A stretch of 64,000 bases of DNA, taken from Micrasema longulum (lineage: Eukaryota > Arthropoda > Insecta > Trichoptera > Brachycentridae). The notes under the pieces are model-generated. The model searched no databases. It was not told where the DNA came from and saw only the letters and a list, made by a program, of their open reading frames with translations. A program made the position numbers and the translations under genes. Of the stretch, positions 7 to 55,474 are shown piece after piece; the stretch's first letter is position 1, and every line of letters starts with the position of its first letter. The DNA lies in assembly GCA_022494885.1 (NCBI GenBank), contig JAGVSM010000209.1:62001-126000 (forward strand), written 5' to 3'.

Positions 7-2272
7 TAGGGGTCTCCAAACTACGGCCCGCGGGCCAAATCCGGCCCGCCAGTGTCATCAATTTGGCCCGCGACAGCCAATGATTTATTGTTGTTACTAT
101 TGCTGTGATAAGTTGAAGCAGAAAACACAGAATGATAATTACTCGGTTTTATTTACTTGCAAGGTAAAACTTAACGACAGAAATTATGACGCAGAAAACT
201 TAACTTAAGTATCTAAGTTTAAGCATATTAATAACTAACAAATAATTGAAATGAATGCCACTAATCATAGTAAAACAAAAACACTAATGAGATTTATGTA
301 ATTGTGGCTTTCCACCGACAATAGTTTGTAGTTGTAGATCAATTTTACTTGTATTAATTTCATTCGCAATGACATCAAAATTTGAGAAACGAGTATCAAA
401 ATTTATTTTCAAAGCACTCAAAGTTTCGATTGTAAAATCGACGGGAACTTCAGTCTATGTAGTGTGGCTAAATATTTCACATGCTTTAAAATGTGTTAAA
501 CATTTTTTACGTAATTGCGATTGATATAGTATTATTTTCTGCCTGAAGGATTTGATATTGGTGCATAAATCAGGAAGAAGCTGATTTTCTCCTTGCAATC
601 TCAAATTCAGTTCGTTCATATGATTTGTAAAATCGACATAGAATGCTAACTTCCACATCCATTCACTATTTTCTAAATCGGCAAAAGGGCGCTGCTTCTC
701 ATTAAAAAAAAAATCGATCTCTGCTCGAAGTTCAAAAAAGCGCTTAAGGACTTTTCCGCAACTAAACCAGCGTACTGCAGTATGATATGGTAAGTCATTT
801 TCTCCAATCTCTTGAATAAACTCGCAGAATTGTCGGTGATTCAGCCCAGTGGATCTGATGAAGTTAACAACTGAAATGACTGGTTTTAGAACTTCAGACA
901 TATCCAAACATTTTCCGCACAAGGACTGTTGATGAATGATACAATGTAAGACTAATGGTTTTGAACCACCATCATTTTCTACAGCCTTTGACACAAGTAC
1001 AACTACTCCTTTATTTTTACCACACATATTTTTGCCTCCATCAGTTGTAATAGATTTCAAATTTTTCCATCGAAGAGTCTTTTTATTAATGGCATTTTCA
1101 ACTCCCTTAAAAATATCTGCCCTAGTTGTCGTGCCGTGAATACTATCAATATCAAGAAGTTCTTTATACACTTCATAGCTTTTATCCACTCCGCGAATAA
1201 AAATCAACACCTGAGCAGTATCTGATACATCCGTTGACTCATCCAATGCTAGAGAAAACCACTCATGATGTCCATTTTTGTCAGACAGTTGAGATGATAT
1301 ATTTTCTGCGATGTCTTGCACCCTCCGAGCCACGGTGTTTGCTGACAAACTGACACTTTTAAATAAATTTACCTTTTCGGGGAATATTTCTTCGGCTACT
1401 GCAATCAAGCATTCTTTTATCATTTCTCCATCGGTGAATGGTTTTCCACGTTTTCCGATTTCAAGAGCCACACAAAAGCTGGCGCGAGTTGCAGACTCTT
1501 GTTCAGTATTCGCTTTGGTAAACAAAGATTGCTGCGATTTGAGTCCGCGTTTCAAAGCTTCAAATTTTTCCGTCCGCAAACTTCCTGTATACTTGGAGTA
1601 ATTTTGAAGATGTTTCGATTCATAGTGTCGTTTAATGTTATATCCTTTGGAACAGCTATGGTTTCATTACAAAATAAAACTTATTACTGGACTCAATCAC
1701 AAAATACTGAAAGTTCCATTTATCTTGGAACGTTCTGCATTCACTGTCGATTTTTCGCTTCTTTTCCATACTAACAAATCACACATAAAAACAATAATTA
1801 AAATCAAAATACTTTTATGCACGGGTGTTACTTTATTTCACAATAGACAGTTTCGCTTCCTTAGCCTTTCCTACGCAGACTGACTCGCGGTTGCGCCGCT
1901 AGCTTTTTTATATGCAATTACTGCCATCTCGAAGTGATCGGAATACACTAGCCAGAACCAGAACTTTCTCGAACCAACGCGGTAATTCCAAATATTTAAT
2001 TACGACTTATGCCACCTGTTAGCGGGTAGCTGAAATAGATAGTACATAGTATAATACATAGTACCACTACTCGCCACTAGATGTCGTTAAGTGTCACAAT
2101 ACACAATAATAATTGAAATGCAAAAAAGCGTAAGTTTGCTTAGGTCGCGCACTTTGCGACTATTCTAGTCTAGAAATATAGTTAACGGCAGAAAAATTAA
2201 AACTGGTTTGGCCCTTGGAACAAACTGAAAAAAACATTATGGCCCGAAGGCTTCAAAGTTTGGAGACACCTG
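7..2272 (-). mobile_element. Autonomous-type hAT DNA transposon, decayed (BED finger / GTF2IRD2-like transposase)
   Basis: The ends are imperfect inverted repeats: 7-25 reads TAGGGGTCTCCAAACTACG, and the reverse complement of 2254-2272 reads CAGGTGTCTCCAAACTTTG (15 of 19 match). Both ends are followed inward by CpG-rich 'ggcccg' tracts. Inside lies a minus-strand transposase pseudogene. TIRs beginning CAGGNGT with TCCAAACT are known from hAT elements related to vertebrate and insect ZBED5/GTF2IRD2-like genes. hAT elements make 8-bp duplications. The right flank 2273-2280 is ctctagca, but only six bases of left flank lie in the window and they do not match, so the duplication is unproven. The right flank is LINE coding sequence, so the element landed in an older LINE copy. 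Confidence 0.85.
285..1769 (-). pseudogene. hAT transposase pseudogene (BED zinc finger plus RNase-H-like core)
   Basis: The longest open stretch is 455-1579 (374 codons), but the gene is longer. An upstream ATG at 1769-1767 starts MEKKRKIDSECRTFQDKW. That frame is lost by a frameshift before a BED/C2H2-like segment (FCNETIAVPK, then NIKRHYESKH in another frame) that leads into SLRTEKFEALKRG. The open part carries the usual first catalytic segment LALDESTDVSD, a second acidic segment ITTDGGKNMCG and the downstream LHCIIHQQSLCGK, as in GTF2IRD2/ZBED-type hAT proteins. At 453 an in-frame TAG follows SHTT, and the frame continues with SALKINFDTRFSNFDVIANE to about 287. The C-terminal hATC dimerisation region is short or lost. 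The protein would bind the terminal repeats and cut DNA in the nucleus. With two frameshifts and a stop it is not expected to be active. Confidence 0.85.
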
Positions 2273-10670: not shown

Positions 10671-10775
10671 GAAAAAAATGAAAAATTAGTTGTTAAAAAT
10701 TTAATGGTTTAATTCATTTTATTATAATGAATAACCACAAAGTTAGTGCTTCAAATATACAATTTATAAATTAAA

Positions 10776-11113
10776 TTAAATTATTTTTGTCTTAAGGATC
10801 AAAAACAAAGTGTTTCTGGTTAACTAATGAGTTGATATAATGATATTTTAATGAGTTTTAGTATTGTAAGACAAAAATAATTTAATTTAATTTACTTTCA
10901 TATGACTTTGAATTCTCAATCTTTACCTCTGTTTTGTATATATACATTGAATTTCTTATGAAAGATACCAGTTTCGAAGATGTCGCAAGAGCGATTAAAC
11001 CGATCACTGGATATTCCAAATTTGTGGATTAAAGTATTACCCGTTTTTTATTTTTATAATAAATTACAATGAACTTCCTTCAAGAATTTTCACTTACAAA
11101 CTTAAATGTTTTA
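10776..11113 (+). mobile_element. Hammerhead-type element, family C copy 1 (Penelope-like terminal repeat)
   Basis: The right half matches the elements at 13419 and 55105 and ends at 11113 with 'cttaaatgtttt', the reverse complement of the left end of those two copies. The left half is an inverted partial copy: 'ggttaactaatgagttg' and 'ctcattaaaat' words appear in reverse, with the pivot near 10868. A 5'-truncated body preceded by an inverted partial terminal repeat is the usual form of Penelope-like insertions. The hammerhead-like motif is at 10968-11010. Confidence 0.65.
10968..11010 (+). ncRNA. Hammerhead-like motif, family C copy 1
   Basis: Stem I CCAGT / ACTGG is intact, but the core and GAAA segment are mutated: TTCGAAGA, stem II GTCGC / GCGAT with an AAGA loop, then TAAACCGATC where the other copies have GAAACCGGTC. 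Probably a dead copy. Confidence 0.5.
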
Positions 11114-13297: not shown

Positions 13298-13418
13298 TGT
13301 AAACGCAGGGGCGAACCGTGTAAAGAAGCGATTATGCGTAGCTTACTATTATATTTGACTATGCATAATAATGTTTTACGGTAACTTTATTTACAGAAAA
13401 ACAAACAAATAATTACTA

Positions 13419-13749
13419 AAACATTTAAGTTTGCAAGTGAAAATTCTTGATGGAAGTTCATTGTAATTTATTATATAAATAAAACACGAGTGATACTTTA
13501 AATTCATTAGTTAACCCAAAGAAAATTTGTTGATAATGATCCTTAAGATAAAAATAACTTTATTTAATTTACTTACATATAACTTTGAATTATGTATCCT
13601 TACTTCTGTTCTGTATAAATACATTTAACTTTTTAATAAAGATACCAGTCTCGAAGATGTCGCGAAAGCGATGAAACCGGTCACTGGATATTCCAAATTT
13701 GTGGATTAAAGTATCACTCGTGTTTTATTTATATAATAAAAAATAAAAA
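13419..13749 (+). mobile_element. Hammerhead-type mini-element, family C copy 2, 331 bp, 12-bp TSD
   Basis: Flanked by the 12-bp direct repeat AAATAATTACTA (13407-13418 and 13750-13761). The uninterrupted family H copy at 26837-27621 has this site once (reverse strand, near 27506-27517), which confirms the insertion. Near the ends is a perfect inverted repeat of about 34 bp ('acacgagtgatacttta' near 13482-13498 and its complement near 13697-13713). The element has no ORF. The hammerhead-like motif is at 13645-13687. It has an A-rich right end. Confidence 0.85.
13645..13687 (+). ncRNA. Hammerhead-ribozyme-like motif, family C copy 2
   Basis: Stem I CCAGT / ACTGG (5 bp), core segment CTCGAAGA, one unpaired T, stem II GTCGC-GAAA-GCGAT (5 bp with a tetraloop), then GAAA, CCGG, TC and the stem I partner. 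Compared with CUGANGA, the core has an extra or replaced C before GA. The architecture is complete, but the catalytic core is not canonical. Confidence 0.55.
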
Positions 13750-14529
13750 AAATAATTACTAGTTCTTATAAATCAATGCCACCGTTTGTATATTTCTCCA
13801 AATATAAAAAAAAATATTCATAAAGCGCACCCAGCACCAGCAATGAGCCAAGAAACTAGCCGATTACTCCAGCTTATATCTTTATACTAATAAGTGTACA
13901 ATAATTTGAACATCTTAAACCCAATGGCGCGATTTTTCTTTGAGAGTAAACTTGCAGATTACACAAATTCTTTTAAGATTCTCAATTTGAAAAACAGTAT
14001 TTCAAACATTATTATTTAAGGACTATTTTTCTTTGAGATGATACTTTTGACATATGACTCGCAACACATGTGGCGCTCGACGCGGCCGTTTTTGGCATTA
14101 TTTATTTCTAGAACAAATCGGCCAGTTGACTTTTCAATCGTTATGAGAATATCTAATATAAACTGAATTGATTGTGATATTTTTATACACTTTTACAAGA
14201 GCTATATGTTAAATTAATGGATTATATAGCTACACAATATAATATATCACGAAGTTACGTCGTTTAAGTTGATTTCATAGATGAGAGTTGTTGTGTCACA
14301 CATAATCACAAAAAAATAGCAATTTATAGTTTACATCACTTACATTATATTATATACCTACCAAGTCGGTAAAAATAATGATATTTTTTTATTGCTTACG
14401 CGTAAATAAAATCATTGTTTGCCACTGGGTAAAAGTGTTATTGATTTGACCAACTAGTTCAAGAAAAAGTGCACATTATTATATTTTTTTAGCATTTGCC
14501 TAGTAAGTGAATAAATTTGGATAAATATC

Positions 14530-14900: not shown

Positions 14901-14919
14901 CTAAGGGTTAGTTGGCGAA

Positions 14920-14951
14920 AATTCTTCTTTGAAGTTCATTGTAATTTATTA
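14920..14951 (+). repeat. Family C hammerhead-element left end, split by the mariner
   Basis: 'gaaaattcttctttgaagttc' then 'attgtaatttatta' is the left end of family C. It stops at the mariner's TA and resumes at 15700 with 'caaataaaagacgagtgatac', matching 'taaataaaacacgagtgatac' at 13475-13496. The mariner therefore landed inside a family C copy. Confidence 0.7.
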
Positions 14952-15053
14952 TACGAGGGTTGGTTAAAAAATGAGGTTCTCAATTTTTTTTCAGGTTTAA
15001 GGCATTTTTTATTTGAACTGAAAAATACATCATTGGAAAGCTTAATTTCTTAA

Positions 15054-15494
15054 CTATTTTTCGACACAATCACCAGATTTTTCAACGCATTTTTGTTGAC
15101 GACTAATCTACTTTTGGAATCCAGCTTCAAAGAAGTCCGCCGCCAGTCCGTGGAGGAATTTGGTGACCGCTGCCTGCACTCTTTCATCAGTCTCGAAACG
15201 TTGTTCACCCAACTGTTGCTTTAATTTTGGAAACAAGTAGAAGTCACTCGGTGCAAGATCAGGACTGTAGGAAGCCTGTTCAACGAGATCCAAGCCAAAA
15301 TTTTCGATTAAATCCTTGGTTTGGCGAGATACGTGCGGGCGTGTATTGTCGTGGTGCAGTCTAACGCCTTTCGTCAGTCTTCCTCTCCGACGATTTTGGA
15401 CGGCTCTTCTGAGTATCTTCAAGGTCTCGCAATAATTTTCCGAATTTATTGTGGTCTCTCGAGTCATAAACTCAACAAGCAGGACGGTCACCAA
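15054..15494 (-). pseudogene. Mariner transposase, catalytic C-terminal part (D34D)
   Basis: The open part 15108-15494 has VRLHHDNTRPHVS and SPDLAPSDFYLFPKLKQQLG. Exactly 34 residues lie between the D of HHDN and the D of PSDFYLFP, the D34D spacing of mariner transposases. The N-terminal helix-turn-helix DNA-binding part and the first catalytic Asp are missing, replaced by the inverted arm. The frame stops early: GFQK is followed by TAG where the right arm has TGG (W), and the old C-terminus ISRQQKCVEK continues behind it. There is no proper start codon, since the upstream end is the rearrangement breakpoint. Not functional. Confidence 0.9.
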
Positions 15495-15600
15495 ATTCCT
15501 CCACGGACTGGCGGCGGACTTCTTTGAAGCTGGATTCCAAAAGTGGATTAGTCATCAACAAAAATGCGTTGAAAAATCTAGTGATTATGTTGAAAAATAG
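15484..15600 (+). pseudogene. Mariner transposase C-terminus duplicated in the right arm
   Basis: On the plus strand this arm reads VTKFLHGLAADFFEAGFQKW then ISHQQKCVEKSSDYVEK and a stop. It is the same C-terminus as the minus-strand copy at 15054-15170, and here the W codon is intact. It is a by-product of the fold-back rearrangement, not an independent gene. Confidence 0.85.
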
Positions 15601-15894
15601 TTAAGAAACTCTTTCCAATGATGAATTTTTCAGTTCAAATAAAAAATGCCTTAAACCTGAAAAAAATTTAAGAACCTTATTTTTTACACAACCCTCGTAC
15701 AAATAAAAGACGAGTGATACCTTGAAATAAAGTTAATGAACAGCTAACACATATTTATTTCCTATTAGTAACCATTATAATAAATTTACTAATTATTTTT
15801 AATACTCTTACTTTTCAGACGTCCCGACGCCGGCGAATGGCCGATATGAACATACAAATTGTGCTACTGTATAAATGAAATATTTACAACCAAA

Positions 15895-26836: not shown

Positions 26837-27621
26837 CAGTGGCGAACGGTAATTTTATTTACTGGTAAGCTATAAAAAAATATCATTTATTTGTACCTAC
26901 ATAGTAGGTGCATAATATAATATAAGTGATATACACCTACTATAAATTGCTATTTTTTCTGTGGTTATGTGTGATACAACAACTATCATCTATAAAATCA
27001 ACTCTAACGACGTAACTTCGTGAAATATTATATTGTGTAGCTATGTTATCCATTTATTTAATACACAACTTATTTAAAAGTTTATAAAAAATAGCACAAT
27101 GAATTCAGTCCGTATTAGCAATTATCATTACGATTGAAATGTCAACTGGCCGACTTGTTCTAGAAATGAATAATGCTAAAAACGGCCGCGTCGAGCACCA
27201 CATGTGTTGCGAGTCATATGACAAAAGTATCATCTCAAAGAAAAATAGTCCTTAAAAAAAAATGATTGAAATACTGTTGTCTAAATCAAAAATTTTCAAA
27301 GAATTTTTGTAATCTGCAAATTTACTCTCGGAGAAAAATCCCGCCACTGGGTTAAAGATGTTCAAAATATAGTACTTTTATTTGTATGAAAAAATAAGCT
27401 GGAGTAATAAGCTAGTTCTGTGGCTCATTGCTGGTGCTGGGCGCGCATATGAATATTTTTATTTAAATTTGGAGAAAAATACAAATGATGGTAATGATGT
27501 ATAAGAAATAGTAATTATTTGTTTGTTTTTCTGTAAATCACGTCATTGTAAAGCATTATAACGGATAGTCAAATATTATGGTAAGCTGCGCATAATCACT
27601 TCTATACACGGTTCGCCCCTG
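26837..27621 (-). mobile_element. Non-autonomous hAT element, family H (copy 2, 785 bp)
   Basis: Uninterrupted copy in inverse orientation to 13306-14427. The ends are CAGTGGCGAACGGTAA and, in reverse complement, CAGGGGCGAACCGTG. The flanking octamers GGTTACAG (26829-26836) and GTTTATAG (27622-27629) match at six of eight positions. The segment 'ggccgcgtcgagcaccac' (27184-27201) is CpG-rich and conserved in both copies. No ORF. Confidence 0.85.
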
Positions 27622-55104: not shown

Positions 55105-55474
55105 AACATTTAAGTTTTTAAGTGAAAATCCTTGATGGAAGTTCATTGTAATTTATTATATAAATAAAACACGAGTGATACTTTAATCCACAAATTCGGA
55201 ATATCCTTAAACAATACTTAAACTCATTAAAATAGCATTATATCAACTCATTAGTTAACCCAAAGAAATTTTTTTGATAATGATCCTTAAGATGAAAATA
55301 ACTTTATTTAATTTACTTACATATATCCTTACCTCTGTTTTGTATAAATACATTTAACTCTTTAATAAAGATACCAATCTCGAAGATGTCGCGAAAGCGA
55401 TGAAACCGGTCACTGGATATTTCAAATTTGTGGATTAAAGTATCACTCGTGTTTTATTTATATAATAAATTTTT
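55105..55474 (+). mobile_element. Hammerhead-type mini-element, family C copy 3, 370 bp, 12-bp TSD
   Basis: Bounded by AAAAAATACTTG at 55093-55104 and 55475-55486. Same left end as copy 2 ('aacatttaagttt'). The inverted arms are longer here, about 54 bp: 'gtgatactttaatccacaaa' near 55171-55190 against 'tttgtggattaaagtatcac' near 55427-55446. The segment between the arms and the motif, deleted in copy 2, is present. No ORF. Two copies with clean 12-bp duplications show that this unit is mobile as such. Confidence 0.85.
55374..55416 (+). ncRNA. Hammerhead-ribozyme-like motif, family C copy 3
   Basis: As at 13645-13687, with one change in stem I (CCAAT / ACTGG, one mismatch). Stem II GTCGC-GAAA-GCGAT, GAAA, CCGG and TC are intact. 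Confidence 0.5.

Follow-up and report, generated by a model that had tools for sequence, protein, structure and literature searches.

How does a 331-bp insertion come to carry two arms of one sequence in inverted orientation, a hammerhead-like motif and a 12-bp target-site duplication, and from which kind of element does it derive? The insertion lies in a stretch of 64 kb (the window; GC content 31%) from the trichopteran Micrasema longulum. It comprises exactly the 331 bp between two copies of AAATAATTACTA (13407-13418 and 13750-13761, both unstranded) and extends from 13419 to 13749 on the plus strand, an orientation that places both its longer arm and its hammerhead-like motif in sense. An uninterrupted paralogue on the minus strand (26837-27621) aligns with both flanks of the insertion and contains the 12-mer once, as the empty target site (27509-27520, minus strand). 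The insertion, its duplication and its empty site had been proposed in a previous sequence-only reading of the window and are confirmed. The same holds for the inverted subterminal arms: a perfect 35-bp inverted repeat links 13467-13501 (minus) with 13706-13740 (plus). This repeat dominates the fold predicted for the insert RNA (z = -7.6; none of 100 shuffled sequences was equally stable).

The interrupted host element (13306-14427) and its relative (26837-27621) have hAT-like ends (CAGGGGCGAACC and TTTGCCACTG) and are flanked by imperfect 8-bp duplications with six of eight positions matching in both copies. The host element is a putative hAT transposon. Elsewhere in the window, a 374-aa open frame (455-1579, minus strand) resembles by eye a ZBED/hAT-type transposase-derived protein.

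Copies of the insert were sought in the genome (584 Mb, 5184 contigs). The insert query (354 bp) yielded at least 112 matching rows, with 40 scored of 1870 candidates, and a query of 344 bp upstream of the pLTR, devoid of both pLTR ends, yielded at least 44 rows, with 40 scored of 1343 candidates. Since the insert query is itself two-armed, the loci of the upstream query (L032-L060) constitute the fairer sample. A single contiguous copy of 643 nt (L028, 1449-2091 reversed) served as reference R. In R, the ORF ends at about R222, the hammerhead-like motif occupies R495-541, arms without tail end at about R591 and the tail comprises R592-643. Along R the copies diverge by 0.6-5.7% per 20-nt bin, less in the motif (1.6%) than in the remaining pLTR (2.9%), and look young. 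Loci L031, L051 and L061-L064 are repeats of other loci; they were left out of this profile together with alignments of less than 100 columns, and also of the listing of arms and spans and of the duplication test, to which a window copy at 55 kb was added.

Projected onto R, the insert resolves into two facing arms. The antisense arm (R557-642; 13416-13501, minus strand) has 99% identity to the L028 reference piece and includes the tail (R592-642; 13416-13466, minus strand), whose first three nucleotides are shared with the duplication. The sense arm (R352-591; 13501-13740, plus strand) is a part of the element's pLTR without the tail, and a 9-nt A-rich filler (13741-13749, plus strand) separates it from the right duplication. 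The left arm of the 35-bp repeat would represent the overlap of two cDNA arms. Read in sense, the tail opens the ORF of the element (ATGAACTTCCATCAAG, M-N-F-H-Q-E-F-S). A second two-armed copy of the same family of Penelope-like elements (PLEs) is located at 55105-55471 (plus strand), flanked by the 13-bp duplication TAAAAAATACTTG, and a third, older copy with 84-89% identity at 10767-11113 (plus strand) has arms R317-422 (minus) and R395-641 (plus, with tail). A fourth PLE-related remnant at 14917-15819 consists of R583-619 in antisense followed by R175-264 in sense, and is apparently split by an element of about 740 bp with inverted ends ACGAGGGTTG and CAACCCTCGT. The splitting element is presumably mariner-like.

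Longer copies extend into the domains RVT_1 (PF00078, 3e-10) and GIY-YIG (PF01541, 2.5e-6), both over the Pfam cut-off. RVT_1 was detected in L060, L067 and L071 with values of 3e-10 to 4.7e-10, above the curated cut-off, whereas a piece of L035 reached 27.8 bits and remained below the cut-off of 29.6. GIY-YIG was detected in L063 (28.2 bits, cut-off 22.6) and was not reported by Pfam in the frames of L060, L035, L067 and L071. The 68-aa C-terminus alone matched no Pfam family, and the RT piece matched none of the PDB sequences. L067 consists of an inverted pLTR piece (R546-596, minus), a 5' pLTR (R396-643, plus), the ORF and a 3' pLTR with tail (R5-643, plus); the tail runs directly into the ORF, which starts with M-N-F-H-Q-E-F-S and continues into the RT. 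L071 has 5' pLTR, ORF and 3' pLTR in the same order, with no inverted piece listed. The open frames span 773 aa (L067) and 764 aa (L071), with the RT domain inside both. The pLTR-ORF-pLTR order, the inverted partial pLTR of L067 and a tail on only one of the two inverted ends are features of Penelope/Poseidon-type elements. The Penelope-like nature suspected from the window is thereby borne out, as the copies grade into an element with RT, GIY-YIG and pLTRs.

At E <= 1e-10, 111 homologues were found, listed with RVT_1, HTH_animal and/or GIY-YIG, many of them with HTH_animal (PF26215) and GIY-YIG. An organism is named in 16 of the 111 rows, in each case an insect. A protein search of the genome revealed further PLE families beside that of the insert (family A), namely B, C, E and D with RT identities of about 58, 48, 43 and 34%, respectively. 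In L082, L083 and L084, hammerhead-like motifs of family B on one strand are separated by about 3300 bp, a spacing that would correspond to full-length elements that either have two pLTRs or are arranged in tandem. In L030, an inverted repeat of about 210 bp (around 291-510 and 2100-2320) was seen by eye to flank the second PLE arm.

Pen2a and related Penelope families of Adineta vaga share the pLTR-ORF-pLTR organization and the partial inverted pLTR beside the 5' pLTR; their description reports inverted pLTRs, one of which has a short tail of 31 bp, and short target duplications of 8-10 bp (PMC3846280). The caddisfly element differs by host and family, by 12-bp duplications, by a far higher copy number and by the hammerhead-like motif, the word hammerhead being absent from the main text of that study. 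The accessible portion of PMC12910113 contains nothing on tails or arms.

Arms were classified by their outer ends as tail arms (R630 or later; observed R634-643) or no-tail arms (R585-612; observed R588-608), and facing arms less than 2500 bp apart were considered a pair. All kinds of facing pairs were sought in 59 sources (L001-L060 minus two repeats, plus the 55-kb window copy): 43 pairs were tail/no-tail, none was tail/tail and one was no-tail/no-tail. The arms of this lone pair, in L054, differ by 10.1% compared with 3.2% for the tail/no-tail pair of the same locus, and it probably represents two insertions. Within the upstream-query sample, tail/no-tail pairs were present in 15 of 28 loci and tail/tail pairs in none, the L054 case being additional. 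Some of the 13 loci without a pair are single-armed and others run off the fetched stretch; the single-armed L045 and L050 look like one locus taken twice, and both are counted among the 28.

The longest stretch common to both outer ends measured at least 11 bp in 32 of the 43 pairs and exactly 12 bp in 22. Mispaired ends used as controls shared at least 11 bp in 23 and at least 12 bp in 10 of 1806 combinations. Duplications of at least 11 bp were also present in 9 of the 15 pairs from the upstream-query sample, and two of 12 single-arm cases examined had a duplication of 11-12 bp. In 11 of the 43 pairs no duplication of at least 11 bp is present, which, like the 13 loci without a pair, counts against the explanation preferred below. 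The junctions between arms show short overlaps as well as short gaps. In most copies the outer ends and the 12-bp duplications are constant, as the sequence-only reading had anticipated, whereas the inner ends vary from R604 to positions upstream of R and the spans range from 311 to 2066 bp.

These data contradict a foldback or MITE-type DNA transposon with the inverted repeat as its termini. The perfect 35-bp repeat and the target duplication would suit such an element, yet across the copies the repeats are subterminal and very uneven in length, reaching hundreds of bp in some and almost missing in L027, and a tail flanks them on one side only. On the varying repeat length and the one-sided tail this reading was rejected, and its probability is negligible.

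The spans bear likewise on a non-autonomous PLE derivative of fixed length, itself transcribed and mobilised in trans; a non-autonomous PLE was one of the two profiles to which the sequence-only reading had compared its mini-retroelement. More than half of the pairs (25 of 43) indeed span 311-376 bp, lack the RT and GIY-YIG part and retain both termini. However, all 25 were either retrieved with the 354-bp query or belong to the window, and none stems from the upstream-query sample, so that the length peak is at least partly an effect of selection. Their inner ends also differ (R294-R541 in the no-tail arm, R352-R604 in the tail arm), and the longer copies grade continuously into pLTR-ORF-pLTR elements. 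We consider a fixed-length derivative highly improbable. The alternative that the reading had itself named, fragments of a long element, applies in part: the copies are 3' fragments of a full PLE, although with outer ends that are constant in most of them.

The insert is thus very probably a 5'-truncated, two-armed genomic copy of a Penelope/Poseidon-type PLE, which would have arisen by double-primed insertion. The duplication, the empty site, the two arms with near-constant outer and variable inner ends, the single tail per pair and the pLTR-ORF-pLTR parent can all be read from the aligned copies. For the mechanism, we infer that the GIY-YIG/RT protein of the element cuts the target in a staggered manner and leaves 3' overhangs of 12 nt, and that the 3'-OH at either side primes reverse transcription of the element RNA. 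Synthesis from one DNA end would start where the tail ends (about R641), and synthesis from the other some 50 nt upstream of this point (about R591); each cDNA would extend over a variable distance toward the 5' end of the RNA, whereupon their free ends would be joined head-to-head and fill-in of the overhangs would generate the 12-bp duplication. The paired arms differ from each other by a mean of 2.6% and from other copies by 3.9% in 18 comparisons, which include the non-pair of L054 (L031, L051, L061-L064, L076, L078 and loci beyond L078 were left out), and they were closer mutually than to every other locus in only five of the 18; this likeness suits a common source of both arms without proving a single RNA. 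In LINE twin priming, too, two cDNAs primed at two DNA ends are joined head to head. There, one internal start site varies, whereas both arms of the present copies start at fixed neighbouring sites.

The closest experimental parallel is the Poseidon-type element PAc of Anolis carolinensis, which likewise has an ORF with RT and GIY-YIG between pLTRs; in vitro, both DNA strands were cut and extended from two adjacent internal start sites that flank the tail (PMC11167929). The tail of about 51 nt and the two arm patterns of family A fit these two RT start sites, the tail being longer than the 30-40 bp given for PLE tails (PMC11167929). In contrast to PAc, the ORF begins in the tail, after the hammerhead-like motif, and the core of this motif has an extra nucleotide. 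The Anolis assay revealed no apparent strand difference in the use of the start sites (PMC11167929), whereas the genomic pairs appear to use the two sites one per DNA end. What the present copies add is how exclusive this pattern is, since 43 of the 44 facing pairs are tail/no-tail, with one start site per DNA end.

The hammerhead-like motif of the insert (13642-13691, plus strand; predicted cleavage after 13682) reads CCAGU-CUCGAAGAU-GUCGC-GAAA-GCGAU-GAA-ACCGGU-C-ACUGG in family A. Family B has the same fold in other letters, ACCAGU-CUUGAAGAU-GCC-UACUUA-GGC-GAA-AGCGCU-C-GUUGGU. The hammerhead likeness noted in the window thus stands in the fold, which holds between two families, and fails in the core, which is CU-C-GAAGA and not CUGANGA, with one nucleotide extra after CU or, in an alternative reading, a bulge plus substitutions. 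The motif folds into three stems and has GAAA as well as an NUH cleavage site; stem III, short and palindromic (ACCGGU), pairs only between two molecules or units. Canonical CTGANGA occurs on neither strand of the insert. Rfam reported no hammerhead in the window and none in six loci of the four other PLE families; as these include L086 with a canonical core, its silence carries little weight.

In seven aligned sequences, 97.1% of the cells are paired, against 14-34% when the partners are slid, and two-sided changes occur in stems II and III. Between families A and B, two pairs differ at both of their positions, a number reached by 315 of 500 shuffles; the observed count of cells with a two-sided change was reached by six of 500 and the covariation score by none, in a test limited by its two families and by a structure drawn from the same families. 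The stems pair in all five families except for three stem II positions in family D (written without bulge). A motif model, built from families A and B with the window copy among others, matched 100 times in the 79 of 90 sources that were searched (79 exact family A and eight exact family B strings), counts that attest consistency and not discovery given the origin of the model. Left out were L001, L031, L051, L061-L066, L076 and L078, of which L066 is not a pure repeat. Viral contigs gave five pattern matches, none of them a relative.

The core is CU-U-GAAGA in family B, CCGUCGA in C (one copy), CUGUAGA in E (one copy) and the canonical CUGAAGA in D (two copies), the most distant of the five families sampled and the only one with this core. 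All five share AUG at position 9, GAAA and a palindromic stem III. From the motif ATG, family A has a frame of five codons; in family D, the frame in L087 has no stop as far as the retrieved sequence extends, as expected if the ORF starts at this ATG like that of the Anolis element, and the frame in L086 meets a stop. The minimal type I hammerheads described for PLEs (Cervera and de la Pena 2014; Lunse et al. 2017, as cited in PMC7761336 and PMC6155905) share the short or missing helix III, the location in the pLTR and the possible dimeric action, but of the five families sampled here only D retains the CUGA turn, which is changed in A, B, C and E, the last two known from single copies.

The motif and its palindromic stem III with possible dimer action would also befit an animal non-LTR retrozyme, whose short unit is bounded by hammerheads and spreads via circular RNA, and 331 bp lies within the 170-400 nt given for metazoan retrozymes in PMC7229834. 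The copies, however, grade into a coding PLE, neither end of the insert falls at the predicted cleavage site (13682/13683), and the core is no canonical type I hammerhead. Arrays of short hammerhead monomers were absent from the 79 of 90 sources searched with the model and, with a narrower pattern, from 89 loci and the window. The shortest spacing of motifs on the same strand, 327 bp, occurred at one locus (L054), where stretches 90% and 97% identical to the reference lie 47 bp apart and look like two insertions. Without short tandem units in the stretches examined, including the tandem dimers for which the reading had suggested looking, and with variable inner ends, the retrozyme was rejected as extremely unlikely.

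For the double-primed PLE copy, the extra nucleotide of the core makes cleavage uncertain, and detectable self-cleavage of family A RNA is conceivable but rather doubtful. More speculative still is that the hammerhead in the PLEs of this genome has lost its cutting role and is conserved as an RNA scaffold; stem III might then pair two element RNAs, allowing a dimeric enzyme to place a single start site at each DNA end, and this would account for one tail per insertion. Mutations in the hammerhead left in vitro insertion of the Anolis element unaffected (PMC11167929), and the in vivo activity and role of PLE hammerheads are called a mystery in PMC7761336. PLE integration and the role of the hammerhead are open questions in the field, and natural evidence on each can come from a family that is young and abundant, reveals both start sites in its copies, and has 12-bp duplications and a non-canonical core: it bears on whether different start sites are obligatory at the two DNA ends, and on whether the element needs a working hammerhead to spread. 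In L052, a family A copy (around 1285-1300 and 2085-2100) interrupts a family B copy within its hammerhead-like motif, with an 11-bp duplication TTAGGCGAAAG.
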